A model generated the notes under the pieces. The model saw only the letters and a list, made by a program, of their open reading frames with translations, made no database searches and was not told the origin of the DNA. DNA of 64,000 bases from the NCBI RefSeq assembly GCF_025515205.1, contig NZ_JAOPFX010000003.1:124001-188000 (forward strand). Direction: 5' to 3'. Origin of the DNA: Microbacterium fluvii. GTDB lineage: Bacteria; Actinomycetota; Actinomycetes; Actinomycetales; Microbacteriaceae. A program made the translations under genes and the position numbers. Below, piece by piece: positions 5,810-51,054 of this stretch (positions are counted from its first letter, which is position 1; every line of letters starts with the position of its first letter).

Positions 5810-6516
5810 CGAGCCCCGTGATCGTCACCGACATCGCCCGTGCCGACGCCGCGACCGCCGATGCGCTCGCGGTGCACGGCGTCGCGACGGTGCACGAGGC
5901 GATGGGACGAACGGGACTCGCCGGGCCCTCGGTCCGGCCCGTGCAGCAGGGCGCGCGCATCGCCGGCACGGCCGTCACGATCCTGCAGGCCCCCGGCGAC
6001 AACCTCATGATCCACGCCGCGATCGAGCAGTGCCGCGCGGGCGATGTGCTCGTGATCGCGACGACGTCACCCTCCACCGACGGTGCGTTCGGCGACCTGT
6101 TCGCCTCGGCGCTGAAGGGCCGCGGCGTGCGCGGCATGATCACGACCGGCGGGGTCCGAGACACCGCCGACCTGCGTGAGATGGGCTTTCCGGTGTGGGC
6201 GCGCGCCGTGCATTCGCAGGGCACCGTCAAGGCGACACCCGGCTCGGTCAATGTGCCGATCGTCGTCGACGGCGTCGTGGTGAACCCGGGCGACATCGTC
6301 GTGGCCGACGACGACGGCGTGGTCGTCGTGCCGCGCCTGCACGCAGCGGCCGCGCTCGACGCCGCCGACGCGCGCGTCGAGAAGGAGGCCGCCGACCGCG
6401 ATGCCTATGCGAGCGGGCGCGAGCTGAGCCTCGACCGCAAGGGCCTGCGGCCGCTCCTCGACGAGCTCGGCGTGCGCTACGTCACGCAGGCGGAGTACCT
6501 CGATGGCGGCCGCTGA
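5806..6516 (+). CDS. galC: 4-carboxy-4-hydroxy-2-oxoadipate aldolase (RraA superfamily)
   Basis: A 236-residue member of the LigK/GalC/RraA superfamily of class II pyruvate aldolases. The catalytic GGVRD motif (Arg118, Asp119) and the upstream GDLFA loop are present. It splits 4-carboxy-4-hydroxy-2-oxoadipate to pyruvate and oxaloacetate, and family members also decarboxylate oxaloacetate; a divalent metal is required. The start is the ATG overlapping the galB stop (ATGA, 5806-5809); the open frame continues upstream only as a shadow of galB. Its position between galB and galD makes the gallate/protocatechuate-branch assignment likely. Confidence 0.85.
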   Translation: MTSPVIVTDIARADAATADALAVHGVATVHEAMGRTGLAGPSVRPVQQGARIAGTAVTILQAPGDNLMIHAAIEQCRAGDVLVIATTSPSTDGAFGDLFASALKGRGVRGMITTGGVRDTADLREMGFPVWARAVHSQGTVKATPGSVNVPIVVDGVVVNPGDIVVADDDGVVVVPRLHAAAALDAADARVEKEAADRDAYASGRELSLDRKGLRPLLDELGVRYVTQAEYLDGGR

Positions 6517-45193: not shown

Positions 45194-45204
45194 GTCGCCC
45201 CTCC

Positions 45205-45368
45205 CGCTGGTCGGGGAGCGCGCCGCAGGCGCGCTCTTCCGCTGGTCGGGGAGCGCGCCGCAGGCGCGCGTATCGAGACCACGCGCACCGTACGGGAACA
45301 GCGACCAGGTCTCGATACCCCGCCTGCGGCGGCTACGGTTCCTGAGTAGCGCCGCGCAGCGGCGCGTA
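45205..45368. repeat. Microbacteriaceae-type intergenic repeats (TATCGAGACC family)
   Basis: A 30-base unit starting CGCTGGTCGGGGAGCGCGCC occurs twice, at 45205-45234 and 45240-45269. It is followed by GTATCGAGACC (45270-45280), which pairs with GGTCTCGATAC (45308-45318), and then by CGGCGGCTAC...GTAGCGCCGCGCAGCGGCGCG with another TATCGA. The whole block follows the DUF2207 stop. The gene-free stretch 45194-45702 holds only these repeats, the hairpins after them and the promoter of the GntR gene. Confidence 0.75.
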
Positions 45369-45380
45369 TCGAAGGGCGAC

Positions 45381-45702: not shown

Positions 45703-46419
45703 GTGATCGAGAACAGCACGCTGCGCCCGGTCGCGCGCGCGGGGTCGCTGGCCGAGCAGGCGTACCGGGCGATCCGCTCGAGCATCGCCGACGGGTCGCT
45801 CGCGCCCGGCTCCGCGATCACCGAGCGGCAGCTGGCCTCGACGCTCGAGGTGAGCCCGACCCCCGTGCGCGAGGCGCTGCGCAAGCTCGAGCACGAGGGC
45901 CTCGTGGTGCGCAGTGACGCGCGCCGGCTCACCGTCGCCCCCGAGCCGGTCGAGACGGTGGAGGAGCTGCGGCAGGTCGAGATCGTGCTGCGGGCGATGG
46001 AGGCCCGCTTCGCTGCACGCAAGATCGGCGAACCGGCGCTCGAGCGACTCCGCGGCATCCTCGCGCGCGCCCAGGCGGGAGTGCAGGATCTGCCCCCCGA
46101 AGACCTGCTGGTGATGGCGCGGGAGTACGACGCCGAGGTCGCAGAGGCCGCCGAGAACCCGGGGCTCCGTCGCATCATCGAGAGCTTCACGATCCTCGGC
46201 GGCGACGACCGCAATCACCTCGACCTGGTGCTCGTCGGCGACCCGGCATGGCGGCGGATGCGGCTGCAGCAGCACCGCGACCTGTTCGCGGCGCTGGAGG
46301 CCCACGATGAGGACCTCGCCGAGCGCATCACGCGGCAGAATGCCCGATCGGCGCTGTCACGTCTCGACGGTGACGGCCACGGCGCCGATCACGCCGACGG
46401 CGAGGGAGTGGCGCCGTAG
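45703..46419 (+). CDS. GntR-family (FCD) transcriptional regulator
   Basis: A 238-residue regulator: winged helix LAEQAYRAIRSSIADGSLAP, recognition part LASTLEVSPTPVREALRKLE, then an FCD domain (EELRQVEIVLRAMEARFAAR, HRDLFAALEAHD). The GTG start at 45703 follows GAGGAG. It converges on the rraA-type gene, overlapping its end by 31 bases, and faces a divergent promoter at 47139 that carries a GntR-type palindrome. Control of the RraA / MFS / hydrolase / AtuA genes is therefore likely. Confidence 0.87.
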   Translation: MIENSTLRPVARAGSLAEQAYRAIRSSIADGSLAPGSAITERQLASTLEVSPTPVREALRKLEHEGLVVRSDARRLTVAPEPVETVEELRQVEIVLRAMEARFAARKIGEPALERLRGILARAQAGVQDLPPEDLLVMAREYDAEVAEAAENPGLRRIIESFTILGGDDRNHLDLVLVGDPAWRRMRLQQHRDLFAALEAHDEDLAERITRQNARSALSRLDGDGHGADHADGEGVAP

Positions 46420-47099
46420 CTGCGCTGCTGCCGGTAGCCCGCGAGTATGAAGTCGTCGCTCGCGAGGTAGGCGAGGTCGCGCGCCTCGCCGGCCCGCACC
46501 GCCTCGACGGCGCCCGGCAGCGCGTCCAGCGCCTCCCACGGCACCAGCACGACGCCGTTCGCATCGCCGTGCACGAGGTCGCCTGTCGAGATCTGCTCGC
46601 CGTCGATGAGCACCGGCTCACCCACCGCCGACAGCTCGAAGTTCGCGTGCGAGACGACGGTGTAGCGCGAGAAGTAGTGGAAGCCGTTCGCGCGCACCTC
46701 GGCGACGTCGCGCAGTCCGCCGTCGGTGACGATGCCGACCGCTCCCAGGCGCTGCGCGAGGGTCGTCATGATCTCGCCGGCGTAGGCCACTCGGTGGGGT
46801 GTGCCGCTGGCATCCTTCATGACGATGACGACGGGGCCGGTCATCGCCTCGAGCCGCTCCCACAGCTCCCAATAGCCGCTCTGGTCGGCGGCGCGACCCA
46901 CCGCATCCGTCGCGGTGACCGTGAGGGCGCGGCCGACCATGGTGCCGAGCTCCGGGAAGTTGCAGCGGATGCGGCCGCCGAGGTAGCCGGCGCGCCGATC
47001 CCGCAGCGCGAGGCGCTCCAGCGCGTTCGCGACGGTCGGGCTGTCGACGCCGGCGAGGAAGTCGAGCTCGGCGGGGGACGGCGTTCTGTCATCGGCCAT
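46389..47099 (-). CDS. RraA-family aldolase/decarboxylase-like protein
   Basis: A 236-residue RraA superfamily protein. The substrate and metal motif DGGLRD (Arg130, Asp131) and the upstream AYAGEIM loop (Gly108, Glu109) match the 4-hydroxy-4-methyl-2-oxoglutarate aldolase type. Such enzymes split tertiary 2-hydroxy-4-keto acids to pyruvate plus a keto acid, or decarboxylate oxaloacetate. AGGAGG six to seven bases before the ATG at 47099 fixes the start. It is divergent from the MFS gene and shares its operator, and is the second RraA-superfamily enzyme in the window beside galC. Confidence 0.84.
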   Translation of the reverse strand: MADDRTPSPAELDFLAGVDSPTVANALERLALRDRRAGYLGGRIRCNFPELGTMVGRALTVTATDAVGRAADQSGYWELWERLEAMTGPVVIVMKDASGTPHRVAYAGEIMTTLAQRLGAVGIVTDGGLRDVAEVRANGFHYFSRYTVVSHANFELSAVGEPVLIDGEQISTGDLVHGDANGVVLVPWEALDALPGAVEAVRAGEARDLAYLASDDFILAGYRQQRSYGATPSPSA

Positions 47100-47138
47100 G
47101 GAAATGCCTCCTTGCACTCGGCGATGTCTCGTTCTATC

Positions 47139-47150
47139 TTGCTATAGCAA
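47139..47150. promoter_or_regulatory. GntR-type operator TTGCTATAGCAA in a divergent promoter
   Basis: TTGCTATAGCAA is a perfect 12-base palindrome in an unusually A+T-rich 74-base gap between the RraA-type gene and the MFS operon. The pattern fits FCD-type GntR sites, and the regulator gene lies just beyond the RraA gene. Binding would shut both directions at once. Confidence 0.7.
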
Positions 47151-47173
47151 ATATCAACAGACAAAGGAGTCTG

Positions 47174-48505
47174 ATGGACAATCTCGTCCCGACGGTCACG
47201 GTCGCCACCGCGCGCGCCCGGCTGAACCTGCGCGCCGCGATGCTCGTGGCGCTCGCCGTCTTCGCTCAGGAGTCGGTCTGGAACTTCTACGACGCCCAGG
47301 TTCCCGCATCCATCGCCCAATACACCTCCAGCGCCGCCCTCATCGGACTGCTGATGGGCGTCGACAACGCACTCGGCATCGTGTTGCAGCCGCTCGTCGG
47401 CCACCTCTCCGACCGCACCCGCACCCGGTTCGGGCGCCGAGTGCCCTACATGGTGGTCGGGGCGATCATCGCGGCGGTGTTCTTCATGCTGATCCCGTTC
47501 GCGGGATCGTTCGGAGCGCTCATCGCCTGCATCTTCGCGTTCGCGATCGTCGCGAACTCGTTCAAGGCCGTCACCGAGTCGCTCACCCCCGACTTCCAGG
47601 TGCCTGGGCGCCGCAGCCTCGCCAACGGCATCGCCAAGATCGCGACGAGCCTCACGATCATCGTGTCGGCCCTGATCAGCCTGCTCGTGGTCGACGAGAG
47701 CCTGGAGCTCGCCTTCGCGATCCCCGCCGTCATGATGGTGTGCGCCATGCTCATCGTGGGCTTCACGCTGCACGAGACCCGCTCGCCCGGTTACCAGCGC
47801 GCCGTCGCGCAGCGGGGCGGCGAGGGCGAACCCGAATGGACCTTCCGCCGCGTCGTGGGCGAACTCGTGCGCGATGCCGACCGCAGCCGCGTCTTCCTGC
47901 TGCTGGCGATCTTCGCGACGGCCGGCTCATGGGCGGCGCTGCGCTCGCAGCTGACCCCGTACGCGATGGAGGTGCTCGACCTCTCGCGTGGCGAGGCAGG
48001 ATCGCTGACGCTGCCGGCGGGCCTCGCGTTCATCGTGGTCGCGCTGCCGATCGCGTTCCTCTCCGACCGCATCGGGCGCCGCCTCATGGTGCGGATCGGC
48101 CTGGTGGTCTTCATCGCCGGAGCCCTGGTCGCCTTCTCGGTGCCGAACCTCCCGGTCACCATCACCGGCGTGATCATCGCGTCGGTCGGCTACGCCGCGT
48201 TCTCGATCAACGGCATCGTGCTTATGTGGAACCTCGCCCCGAGCGCCGCCGTGGCGGGGGCCTACACCGGCATGTACGCGTTGGCGAGCGCCCTGGGCGC
48301 CTCGCTCGGGCCGGCCCTCATCGGTCTCATGGTCGACGCGACCAGCTGGCGCCTGCTGTTCCTGCACGCGGCGATCCTGGCCGTCGTCGCGCTCGTGCTC
48401 TTCCTGCTCGTGCGCAGCGAGAACCACCCCGCCCAGACCGCCGAGGCCGCGCAGGACGCCGCCACCGCAGCCCTCGCGGCCGAGGCGAAGGGGGCCGTCG
48501 CATGA
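47174..48505 (+). CDS. MFS transporter of a catabolic operon
   Basis: A 443-residue transporter with about 12 hydrophobic helices; GHLSDRTRTRFGRRVPYM is the loop 2-3 motif and FLSDRIGRRL its repeat. It is closest in style to sugar/organic-acid MFS carriers with VWNFYDAQVPASIAQY in helix 1. It is first of four coupled genes and its stop overlaps the hydrolase start (ATGA). AAGGAG at about 47163 sets the start. It likely imports the substrate of the pathway encoded behind it. Confidence 0.83.
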   Translation: MDNLVPTVTVATARARLNLRAAMLVALAVFAQESVWNFYDAQVPASIAQYTSSAALIGLLMGVDNALGIVLQPLVGHLSDRTRTRFGRRVPYMVVGAIIAAVFFMLIPFAGSFGALIACIFAFAIVANSFKAVTESLTPDFQVPGRRSLANGIAKIATSLTIIVSALISLLVVDESLELAFAIPAVMMVCAMLIVGFTLHETRSPGYQRAVAQRGGEGEPEWTFRRVVGELVRDADRSRVFLLLAIFATAGSWAALRSQLTPYAMEVLDLSRGEAGSLTLPAGLAFIVVALPIAFLSDRIGRRLMVRIGLVVFIAGALVAFSVPNLPVTITGVIIASVGYAAFSINGIVLMWNLAPSAAVAGAYTGMYALASALGASLGPALIGLMVDATSWRLLFLHAAILAVVALVLFLLVRSENHPAQTAEAAQDAATAALAAEAKGAVA

Positions 48506-49368
48506 CGCGTCGCCTCGACGACTTCGCGCCGCAGCATCCGGCGTGGGACCTGCTCACCGGCGTCACGCCCTTCCAGGCCTTCGAGGGCGACTCGCGGTTC
48601 CCCTTCTCGCTCTATGTGCCGCGGCGCTACCGCGAGCTGGCGGGAGAGCTGCCCGTGCTCGTGAGCGTGCACGGCACGGGGCGCAAGGTCGAGCGCTCGC
48701 GCGACCAGTTCATCCCGTTCGCCGAGCGCCACGGCGTCGCCGTGCTGGCGCCCCTGTTCCCTGTGGGCATCGGCGAGCCCGACGACGTGTCGAACTACAA
48801 GGAGCTGGCCTACCGCGGCATCCGCTTCGACGAGATCGTGATCGGGATGCTGCAGCAGGCGGCCGCGCGGTGGCGACTGCGCACCGACCGGTTCTTCCTG
48901 GCGGGGTTCTCGGGCGGCGGGCAGTTCGCCCACCGCTTCGCCTACCTCCACCCCGAGCGGCTGCTCGCCGTGTCGATCGGAGCCCCCGGGCGCGTCACCC
49001 TGCCCGACACCGCCGAGCCCTGGCCTCACGGCGTCGGCGGCGCGGGTGCGGTCTTCGGCGCCGACGTCGATCTCGCCGCCGTCGCGGCCGTGCCGATGCA
49101 GGTGGTCGTCGGCGCCGACGACCATGCCGCAGAGCTTCTCGCCGCCGTCGCCGAAGACCCACGAGAAGCGCGTGCGGGCGCCACCCGTGTCGCGCGGGCG
49201 ACCGCTCTCGCCGAGGAGCTGCGCGCCCTGGGCGCCGACGTCGACCTGAGCATCGTCCCCGGCGCCGGCCACGACCCCCTCGCCGTCACCGCCGAGGTCG
49301 TCGCGTTCTTCGAACGCGTGCCGGCCGCCGCCGCGCCCACTCCCGCCCCCGAAGGAGCCCCCGCATGA
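48502..49368 (+). CDS. alpha/beta-hydrolase (esterase-like)
   Basis: A 288-residue alpha/beta-hydrolase with no signal peptide. The nucleophile elbow is GFSGGGQ (Ser137), the oxyanion-hole segment is SVHGTG (about 55-60) and the late His is in PGAGHDPLAV. The layout resembles polyhydroxyalkanoate depolymerase or feruloyl-esterase-like enzymes. It probably hydrolyses an ester or lactone taken up by the MFS carrier. Its stop overlaps the next gene (ATGA at 49365-49368). Confidence 0.82.
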   Translation: MTRRLDDFAPQHPAWDLLTGVTPFQAFEGDSRFPFSLYVPRRYRELAGELPVLVSVHGTGRKVERSRDQFIPFAERHGVAVLAPLFPVGIGEPDDVSNYKELAYRGIRFDEIVIGMLQQAAARWRLRTDRFFLAGFSGGGQFAHRFAYLHPERLLAVSIGAPGRVTLPDTAEPWPHGVGGAGAVFGADVDLAAVAAVPMQVVVGADDHAAELLAAVAEDPREARAGATRVARATALAEELRALGADVDLSIVPGAGHDPLAVTAEVVAFFERVPAAAAPTPAPEGAPA

Positions 49369-50741
49369 ACACCCCCGACTCCGTCCGCGTCTTCGTGCCG
49401 ATCGGCATGCTGGGCGGCGGCTTCCCCGAAGAGATCGTCGAGCGCGGCATGGCCCTCGGCGCCGACGTCATCGCCGTCGACGGCGGCTCGACCGACTCGG
49501 GGCCGCACTACCTGGGGTCGGCGACGGCCAAGTCGCCCACCGCCTCCATCGCCCGCGACCTGAGGCTGCTCCTGCGCGCGGCGGCAGCGCGCGGCATCCC
49601 GCTCATCGTCGGGTCGTGCGGCACGAGCGGAACGGATGCGGGTGTCGACTGGGTCGCCGGCATCGTCGACGACCTCCTCGCCGAAGAGGGGCTCGACCTG
49701 CCCGTCGCCCGCATCTACAGCGAGCAGCGTGCCGACGACCTGACGCAGCACCTGGCGGCCGGCCGCATCCACCCGCTGCCGCCGATGGGCGAGCTCGACC
49801 CCGCGACGCTCGACGACTGCACCCACATCGTGGGGCTCATGGGGCACGAGCCGATCGTCGAGGCGCTCGAGGCCGGCGCGCAGGTCGTGCTGTGCGGACG
49901 CGCGACCGACACGGCCGTCGCCGCCGCGGTGCCGCTCATGCGGGGCATGCCGGCCGGACCCTCCTGGCACGCCGGCAAGATCGTCGAGTGCGGGGCGCAG
50001 GCCACGACCAATCCCCGCACCGGCGGCATCTTCGCCACGATCGACGCCACCGGCTTCACGATCGAGGCGGTCGACGCCGACACGGCGTGCACGCCGGTGT
50101 CGGTGGCCGCGCACATGCTGTACGAGAACGTCGACCCGTTCCTGCTGCGCGAGCCCGACGGCACGCTCGATGTGCGCGAGGCGACCTACGTCGCCCTCGA
50201 CGAGCGGCGCGTGCGCGTGGAGGGCTCGGTGTTCCACCATGCCGCCCAGCACACCGTCAAGCTCGAGGGCGCCCGGATCGCGGGCTATCAGACGATGTCG
50301 TTCGTCGGCGTGCGCGAACCGCAGGTGCTCGCCGACCCCGAGGCGTGGGCGCAGACCCTGCGCGGCTATCTCGTCATGAGGATCCAGCAGGCGCTCGGCC
50401 TCGGCCCCGACGCCTACGAGTTCGACCTGCGCCTCTACGGGTACGACGCGATCCTGCGCGACCTCGACCCGGCCGCATCCGCCCCTCGCGAACTGGGGGT
50501 CATGCTCCTCGTGAGCGCCGCCGACCAGCAGACGGCGACCGCGATCGCCAAGACCGTGAACCCCTACCTGCTGCACATGCCGACGGCGGCGATGGACTAT
50601 CTGCCGAGCTTCGCGTTCGCGATGTCACCGGCCGAGCAGGAGCGCGGCGCGACCTACGAGTTCGTGCTCAACCACGTCGTCGATTCGCCGAGCCCCACCG
50701 CCCTCTTCCGCATCGAGACCGGAGTCGCCGCGCATGTCTGA
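49365..50741 (+). CDS. AtuA-family protein (DUF1446)
   Basis: A 458-residue protein of the DUF1446/AtuA family: IGMLGGGFPEEIVERGMALG, VIAVDGGSTDSGPHYLGS, VGSCGTSGTDAGVDW and GRATDTAVAAAVPLMRG are its conserved blocks. AtuA was named from acyclic-terpene utilisation in Pseudomonas, but its chemistry is not established, and many members occur outside terpene loci. It overlaps the start of a DUF4387 gene by eight bases. The two families very often occur together, which suggests one enzyme of two subunits. Confidence 0.85.
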   Translation: MNTPDSVRVFVPIGMLGGGFPEEIVERGMALGADVIAVDGGSTDSGPHYLGSATAKSPTASIARDLRLLLRAAAARGIPLIVGSCGTSGTDAGVDWVAGIVDDLLAEEGLDLPVARIYSEQRADDLTQHLAAGRIHPLPPMGELDPATLDDCTHIVGLMGHEPIVEALEAGAQVVLCGRATDTAVAAAVPLMRGMPAGPSWHAGKIVECGAQATTNPRTGGIFATIDATGFTIEAVDADTACTPVSVAAHMLYENVDPFLLREPDGTLDVREATYVALDERRVRVEGSVFHHAAQHTVKLEGARIAGYQTMSFVGVREPQVLADPEAWAQTLRGYLVMRIQQALGLGPDAYEFDLRLYGYDAILRDLDPAASAPRELGVMLLVSAADQQTATAIAKTVNPYLLHMPTAAMDYLPSFAFAMSPAEQERGATYEFVLNHVVDSPSPTALFRIETGVAAHV

Positions 50742-51054
50742 GTCCACCCGCACCCTCGCCGACGCGTGCCACGAGGTGCGCTCGAAAAACGCCGGACCCT
50801 TCTGGGTGACCATCGACGTCTTCGTGAAGGATGCCGCCGACTACGCGGTCGTCGCCGACCCCGGCTACCTCGACGAGGAGCGCATCGGCGCGATCTACCG
50901 CGTCGACCCCGCTCAGATCCGCATGTTCCGGCTGCCGGACCTGCGGGTCGTCAAGGTGTCGTTCCCGCGGCCGGTGAGCCAGGGGTCGCTCCGAGACACC
51001 GACATGCACGCGGGGCAGCACCATGTGCCGCTCGCCGTGCTGCCGCTGCCGTGA
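50734..51054 (+). CDS. DUF4387 protein, probable partner of the AtuA-family protein
   Basis: A 106-residue protein starting MSESTRTLADACHEVRSKNA, with GPFWVTIDVFVKDAADY and a C-terminal GSLRDTDMHAGQHHVPL rich in His. These are the DUF4387 landmarks; the domain is found next to or fused with DUF1446. It has no known activity alone. It closes the operon, six bases before the end of the converging secreted-protein gene. Confidence 0.83.
   Translation: MSESTRTLADACHEVRSKNAGPFWVTIDVFVKDAADYAVVADPGYLDEERIGAIYRVDPAQIRMFRLPDLRVVKVSFPRPVSQGSLRDTDMHAGQHHVPLAVLPLP

Follow-up and report, generated by a model that had tools for sequence, protein, structure and literature searches.

AtuA-family (PF07287) and DUF4387 proteins are commonly annotated as 'terpene utilisation' or 'unknown function'. 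The acyclic terpene (atu) pathway operates on coenzyme A (CoA) esters and includes carboxylase genes, and the terpene AtuA itself carries PF23544, a small domain that is mostly fused at the C-terminus of AtuA proteins of this type. A second described system is citramalate lyase (CmlAB), represented in the Protein Data Bank (PDB) by entries 9ERQ and 9EVF, in which chain A is called 'Citramalate lyase, subunit A (cmlA)' and chain B 'subunit B (cmlB)'; 9EVF bears the title 'Citramalate lyase - ADP - pyruvate complex' (release 2025-10-08). AtuA-family genes also occur in methylaspartate clusters, which belong to a glutamate route. Here we analyse a 64,000-nucleotide stretch of Microbacterium fluvii (the window; contig NZ_JAOPFX010000003.1, positions 124,001 to 188,000), in which genes for a GntR/FCD regulator, an RraA-type enzyme, a major facilitator superfamily (MFS) transporter, a serine hydrolase and an AtuA/DUF4387 pair lie together. 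Judged by its resemblance to CmlAB, the AtuA/DUF4387 pair is most likely a CoA-independent lyase that would release acetate from a tertiary 3-hydroxy acid and leave a 2-oxo acid, and we regard the assignment as a lyase as well founded.

Homology of the AtuA/DUF4387 pair to citramalate lyase

A phmmer search of the PDB with the AtuA protein gave one distinct match, chain A of 9ERQ/9EVF (E 5.7e-80, residues 8–443), and the DUF4387 protein gave one distinct match to chain B (E 3.9e-12). AlphaFold2 models of the two proteins reached a mean pLDDT (predicted local distance difference test) of 91.5 for AtuA and 93.9 for DUF4387; the E. coli row described below was excluded from the alignments used for prediction. 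The AtuA model superposes on 9EVF chain A with a TM (template modelling) score of 0.90 (Z 48.5, 2.3 Å, 450 aligned of 456 residues) and the DUF4387 model on chain B with a TM score of 0.84, structural matches ranked under 9EVF (Z <8) being disregarded. A Foldseek search of the PDB with both models found no chain besides citramalate lyase at E 0.001. Hence both subunits match their citramalate lyase counterparts in full-length sequence and fold, at about 35% identity and with the same two-subunit architecture, and the small subunit is encoded directly beside the large one. The original prediction had proposed a two-subunit enzyme of unsettled chemistry; the former is supported, and the latter is superseded by the names of the two PDB entries. 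Its description of the pathway as undescribed consequently holds for the substrate and the operon, but not for the lyase chemistry. In the open-licence literature, judged by titles and abstract starts, we recognised no paper on this type of citramalate lyase; no paper there names DUF4387, and those containing the strings 9ERQ or 9EVF were unrelated by title.

Homologues of both proteins are found in E. coli O157:H7 Sakai, where, as in the window, AtuA occurs with DUF4387. ECs_0760 (AtuA, 456 aa) is identical to the window protein at 157 of 444 aligned residues and ECs_0759 (DUF4387, 105 aa) at 35 of 101; their sequences are not identical to those of the PDB chains. The two genes have a methylaspartate ammonia-lyase gene on one side and a transporter gene on the other, with a fumarase gene (named fumA in the record and FumD in PMC4682846) coming next; the cluster is of the glutamate mutase / methylaspartate ammonia-lyase / fumarase kind. 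According to PMC4682846, the DUF1446 gene had no assigned function at that time and frequently bore the wrong name methylaspartate ammonia-lyase, and it was not clear what becomes of citramalate. ECs_0759/ECs_0760 is probably the missing citramalate lyase of E. coli O157:H7. The record (L118, 41934–43618) labels ECs_0759 and ECs_0760 'acyl-CoA synthetase' and '3-methylaspartate ammonia-lyase'; the families are DUF4387 and AtuA. Two AtuA-family genes are likewise numbered beside methylaspartate ammonia-lyase in Prevotella intermedia (PMC10434189). The word AtuA is absent from the accessible portion of PMC12290011, which deals with an itaconate/methylsuccinate cluster.

AtuA matches were also seen on 12 Klebsiella plasmid records. 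The annotation table of the conjugative plasmid pHNYF2-1 (L162, 7992–16051) lists an AtuA-DUF4387 pair, then aldehyde and alcohol dehydrogenases and a fumarate hydratase, which is possibly a mesaconate/citramalate route.

Gene order, operator and neighbourhood

The genes and the putative operator were confirmed at the following positions of the window.

45703–46419, + strand: GntR/FCD transcriptional regulator (PF00392 and PF07729, above the Pfam cut-offs)
46389–47099, − strand: RraA-type class II aldolase / 2-oxo acid decarboxylase by family (PF03737), divergent from the MFS gene
47139–47150, no strand: palindrome TTGCTATAGCAA, putative operator, intergenic between the divergent RraA and MFS starts
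47174–48505, + strand: MFS transporter (PF07690)
48502–49368, + strand: alpha/beta-fold serine hydrolase of the LpqC / polyhydroxybutyrate (PHB)-depolymerase type (3D0K match, conserved triad)
49365–50741, + strand: AtuA-family large subunit, CmlA-like lyase (PF07287, 9ERQ_A match)
50734–51054, + strand: DUF4387 small subunit, CmlB-like (PF14330, 9ERQ_B match)

As predicted, the four genes from MFS through DUF4387 are coupled by overlaps, of 4 nt (MFS/hydrolase), 4 nt (hydrolase/AtuA) and 8 nt (AtuA/DUF4387). The GntR and RraA genes are convergent with a 31-nt overlap, and RraA starts with the ATG at 47099, with AAGGAGG in front. Pfam domains exceed the cut-off in five of the six proteins, the exception being the hydrolase. 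The window operon differs from the CmlAB context in its GntR, MFS, hydrolase and RraA genes, with no methylaspartate-pathway match nearby.

The palindrome at 47139–47150 is the sole TTGCTATAGCAA site of the window at up to two mismatches. The 3.33-Mb genome holds two places at up to one mismatch, both exact, against about 0.01 exact copies expected from base composition; the second copy lies inside an open reading frame (ORF), and a wider TTGCTATAGCAA regulon in this genome was rejected on that account.

For comparison we used 85 loci, namely the best 80 of at least 534 relatives from one genome-contig scan plus five more. Two loci were dropped because their AtuA proteins are identical to others (L030 to L090, L031 to L077), and L035–L037, which have a PF23544-type AtuA and no DUF4387 match, were not counted. 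In these loci (1.355 Mb) 55 sites were found at up to one mismatch, 28 of them exact; 20 scrambled palindromes gave a mean of 0.2 and a maximum of 2 sites in the same sequence. A GntR homologue lies near AtuA-DUF4387 in 53 of the 85 loci, and in 40 of the 53 a site is located upstream of GntR, i.e. between 20 bp inside and 350 bp upstream of the start, as extrapolated from tblastn. Several of the remaining 15 sites directly precede a transporter or dehydrogenase gene belonging to the cluster (L080, L081, L082, L060), and some lie elsewhere, e.g. three in L071. In L028 (same genus) and L029 (same family) the RraA/MFS and GntR/AtuA intervals each have a site of their own, with one mismatch in one of the four places. 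The original prediction would have been contradicted if RraA and the MFS operon were regulated separately. This was tested indirectly, and since the operator is present at both promoter regions in L028 and L029, the result speaks against separate regulation. Together with the GntR/FCD domains and the conserved palindrome at the promoter region, these sites agree with the predicted single co-regulated catabolic unit, and co-regulation appears very likely.

Neighbouring genes were counted as raw numbers of tblastn matches (E 1e-10) no more than 8 kb from AtuA; on one side, several loci do not extend that far. DUF4387 follows AtuA on the same strand in all 85 loci, in 84 of them within 200 nt. 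Besides GntR, the most frequent neighbours are D-2-hydroxyacid dehydrogenase (52), MFS (43), isopropylmalate/tartrate-type dehydrogenase (32) and the ATPase of ATP-binding cassette (ABC) transporters (24), followed by binding protein (13), hydantoinase B (12), CitMHS (11), flavin adenine dinucleotide (FAD) dehydrogenase (10) and hydantoinase A (9); PrpD (6), TctA (5), class II aldolase (4), LeuC (2) and LeuD (2) are rarer. A transporter match (MFS, CitMHS, TctA or ABC) is present in 75 of 85 loci, although some of the ABC ATPase matches may be unrelated neighbours. Where representative families were checked, the PF00180 protein of L046 exceeds the tartrate dehydrogenase cut-off. Many of these neighbours are enzymes or transporters of hydroxy-di- and tricarboxylic acids, which suggests a malate- or citrate-like acid as the substrate.

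The Streptomyces/Amycolatopsis loci L041–L067 contain related clusters, e.g. L041 (667–9681) with tartrate-type dehydrogenase, hydantoinase A/B, MFS, D-2-hydroxyacid dehydrogenase, AtuA and DUF4387. Some of them carry the same operator; no description of these clusters was recognised among the titles and abstract starts of the open-licence literature.

Proposed route and alternatives

We consider it reasonably probable that the whole locus is a GntR-controlled catabolic operon for an acid of the malate or citrate type, with the following scheme. The MFS protein would import the acid, or its ester or lactone, with a tertiary hydroxyl group beta to a carboxylate (a 2-hydroxy-2-substituted succinate), and the serine hydrolase would free the acid from an ester or lactone. 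AtuA-DUF4387 would then perform a retro-aldol cleavage that yields acetate, perhaps in the form of acetyl phosphate with ATP being spent, together with a 2-oxo acid. The RraA-type enzyme might decarboxylate or aldol-cleave this 2-oxo acid to pyruvate. GntR would bind TTGCTATAGCAA and keep the two divergent units silent as long as neither the substrate nor an intermediate is present.

Across 32 AtuA sequences (the window protein and 31 relatives, 46–82% identical to it) 62 residues are invariant. The E. coli protein, at an overall identity of 158/450, retains 46 of them and differs in 16, among them T181, T183 and W201, which are located near conserved motifs and correspond to Y, P and L in E. 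coli. Because of these differences, a substrate other than citramalate is plausible, and citramalate itself may not be the substrate, in contrast to a plain CmlAB assignment. Under such an assignment the operon would serve catabolism of citramalate or a citramalate ester, with a true citramalate lyase releasing acetate and pyruvate and RraA as a loosely linked helper. The closest solved relative, a citramalate lyase in complex with ADP and pyruvate by its title, and the 46 retained core residues argue for it, but pyruvate requires no RraA step, 16 of the 62 invariant residues differ from the E. coli homologue, and mesaconase or methylaspartate matches are missing from the 85 loci; we judge plain citramalate breakdown to be improbable. 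A methylaspartate route in the window operon was likewise considered and rejected, as neither methylaspartate ammonia-lyase nor FumD has a match in the window or in the 85 loci.

Thirteen of the 46 residues (G17, L50, G86, G160, A172, R179, D182, E208, C209, Y253, E254, P264 and K299) are identical in all 17 of the more distantly related AtuA proteins from loci with a PF23544-like domain; within this set the Pfam check of PF23544 covered L037 only, and none of the 17 is known to act on terpenes. The other 33 residues are not all retained, and H202, K205 and H250 occur in none of the 17. Acetate release is described for the acyclic terpene AtuA route (PMC4847356), and both described cases release free acetate (PMC4682846 and PMC4847356). 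Loss of acetate from a tertiary 3-hydroxy acid is therefore the common chemistry of both AtuA branches. As free acetate leaves without a thioester, another activation would be needed; from this lack of a thioester and from the title of 9EVF we infer that the carboxylate may be activated by ATP.

A separate explanation is that the window enzyme acts on CoA thioesters, the operon being one fragment of a route for terpenes or branched acids whose remaining genes lie in other parts of the genome. The family name of PF07287 suggests as much. However, the window AtuA contains PF07287 only, with DUF4387 as a separate gene, a split architecture common to citramalate lyase, whereas PF23544 was found in the L037 comparison protein; the window AtuA is also far from the two PF23544-type rows of the tree. 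With respect to a geranyl-CoA carboxylase, all four PF01039 carboxyltransferase matches of the genome are on contig C1, and none is on the window contig (C3). Thus a terpene route was rejected, in agreement with the earlier statement that this is not the acyclic terpene pathway, and action on CoA thioesters appears very unlikely.

Returning to a CoA-free lyase, a broader view can be offered tentatively. AtuA-DUF4387 and the PF23544-type AtuA proteins may form one superfamily of ATP-dependent, CoA-free lyases acting through an acyl phosphate with release of acetyl phosphate, and the TTGCTATAGCAA operons may represent an undescribed, widespread pathway by which Actinobacteria degrade 2-substituted malates, be they alkyl-, benzyl- or hydroxyalkyl-malates or esters of these. 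This view is based on the pairing of ADP with pyruvate in the title of 9EVF, on acetate leaving free without a thioester and on the 13 residues common to both branches. If the lyase is ATP-dependent and CoA-free, it would cleave malate- or citrate-like acids unlike the classical citrate and citramalate lyases. The link to a solved lyase, together with the core common to the family and the operator as a marker of the regulon, would replace an uninformative annotation by an enzyme class that can be tested and a pathway that can be searched for.

The PF23544-like domain is encoded in a separate ORF beside AtuA in L035 (10335–10745) and L036 (8593–9372) and is fused in L037, which mirrors the split of AtuA and DUF4387. 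An hhalign comparison of DUF4387 with this domain (probability 73%, E 3.1e-5, 51 columns) is suggestive only.

The RraA-type protein resembles 4-hydroxy-4-methyl-2-oxoglutarate/4-carboxy-4-hydroxy-2-oxoadipate (HMG/CHA) aldolase in the PDB (3NOJ, E 1.4e-9), with which it shares PF03737 and the Arg-Asp pair, and it scores far under the NCBIfam aldolase cut-offs. Mazurkewich reportedly gave the aldolase motif in 2014 as D-X20-R-D or G-X20-R-D-X2-E/D. The window protein reads E-X20-R-D-X2-E, with Glu 21 residues before Arg where these motifs have Asp or Gly. E-X20-R-D followed by an acidic residue (Glu or Asp) at the third position after the Asp also occurs in the RraA proteins of L028, L029, L038, L032, L086 and L102, and the pattern was not found in the RraA-type ORFs of L080, L083, L097, L099 and L103 or in a fragment in L085. 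According to PMC5065237, most aldolase homologues bear one of two motifs and Arg-123 is essential in the aldolase. The window RraA is likely catalytic, as judged from its residues, and the earlier reading of it as an RraA-type protein is supported, with the aldolase Arg-Asp pair present in the window protein and in homologues. A final RraA step, as originally proposed, is not general, since RraA is found in 11 and D-2-hydroxyacid dehydrogenase in 52 of the 85 loci, some having both. A further RraA-like (PF03737) match is present in the window at 5884–6327, and the genome holds five in total.

RraA could alternatively act on oxaloacetate. On this citrate-like route the lyase would cleave citrate, or an analogue of it such as an alkylcitrate, to acetate and oxaloacetate (or its analogue), which RraA would decarboxylate to pyruvate; citrate lyase and oxaloacetate decarboxylase would thereby have a counterpart that works without CoA. 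Decarboxylation of oxaloacetate is also described for HMG/CHA aldolases with the RraA fold (PMC5065237), and CitMHS or TctA matches lie near 16 of the 85 AtuA loci. Yet this support is not direct, the transporter in the window is an MFS protein, and, from general knowledge, an aerobic actinobacterium should have no need of such a route for citrate. Hence we think it doubtful that citrate or a close analogue is what the operon degrades.

For the route via a substituted malate, the hydrolase and the transporter fit in as follows. The hydrolase has no Pfam match at E 0.001 and NCBIfam matches below cut-off only (polyhydroxyalkanoate-depolymerase type), and its PDB match is LpqC (3D0K, E 6.8e-18). 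Ser137, Asp207 and His257, the Ser-Asp-His triad of this type, are invariant in 12 of 12 sequences including that of the window. It is presumed to be an ester or lactone hydrolase, and the MFS protein is presumed to be the importer of the acid or its ester.

Several observations weigh against the substituted-malate operon as proposed. Substrate and activity are read from comparison, 9ERQ and 9EVF are known here by PDB names and titles, and the 16 differing invariants separate the enzyme from its E. coli homologue. The 85 loci are the nearest relatives rather than a random sample; among them RraA and the hydrolase are present in only 11 loci each and methylaspartate ammonia-lyase and FumD in none (within 8 kb). 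Two genomes have a window-type RraA (56–62% identical) without AtuA. As to the operator, no TTGCTATAGCAA site precedes GntR in the window at up to two mismatches, 13 of the 53 GntR loci are without a site, and L038, the closest relative, has two mismatches in its RraA/MFS site and a GntR gene that does not adjoin RraA.

Distribution and genomic context

The order RraA (− strand), MFS, hydrolase, AtuA (82% identical) and DUF4387 is as in the window in L038 (Myceligenerans pegani), where GntR lies about 2.5 kb beyond RraA. In L028 and L029 the genes for RraA (69–71%), MFS, GntR, AtuA and DUF4387 are rearranged and the hydrolase has no match; the RraA homologues of these three loci are 69–77% identical to that of the window. 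In a quick AtuA tree, for which support is given as SH-aLRT (Shimodaira–Hasegawa-like approximate likelihood ratio test) alone and from which L037 was left out, the window and L038 proteins fall into a 27-row actinobacterial group (SH-aLRT 98) and those of L028 and L029 into another. The same RraA/MFS/GntR set is consequently found with more than one lineage of AtuA. Since the grouping of the E. coli row with L034 was flagged by the program as a long-branch join, the exact place of CmlA in the tree was not used.

Window-type RraA (E ≤1e-40) is found in 3 of 149 genomes of the genus and 3 of 249 of the family; AtuA, which is rare in the genus, is found in 2 of 149 and 3 of 249, the own genome being included in each. 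Outside the own genome, two genomes have both, two RraA only and one AtuA only, so that RraA and AtuA co-occur (Fisher p 2e-4; 393 genomes, assuming three repeats between the sets). Where RraA occurs alone, its neighbours in both loci are a FAD-type gene and apparent relatives of dihydrodipicolinate synthase, as judged by eye, and no operator-like site is present.

The genes might also be chance neighbours, RraA regulating the RNA degradosome and AtuA-DUF4387 serving some unconnected process. Modulation of the degradosome by RraA is described for E. coli (PMC5065237), and RraA-like proteins are common, as the five matches in this genome illustrate. Against this, the divergent operator is shared in relatives, the window-type RraA is linked to two AtuA lineages and co-occurs with AtuA, and the Arg-Asp motif is kept, so that mere chance is hardly credible.

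The operon proposed here for substituted malates is probably accessory and horizontally acquired. The left flank gene, presumably encoding a DUF2207-like membrane protein, has a match in 30 of 59 genomes of the genus (own included), and stretches were compared from 12 of the 29 others. None of these 12 stretches has a GntR, RraA, hydrolase, AtuA or DUF4387 match; there is one weak MFS match. The right flank gene, which by eye resembles a lytic transglycosylase, was not found in seven of the 12, two of the 12 stretches ending at contig ends. It is present in the other five, where about 3.7 to 12 kb of different content separates the two flank genes.

Between the left flank gene and GntR (45201–45372) the window contains two near-identical GC-rich tandem copies of 34 nt and a third, diverged copy. 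Their 26-nt core occurs nowhere else in the window, and each copy contains a palindrome.

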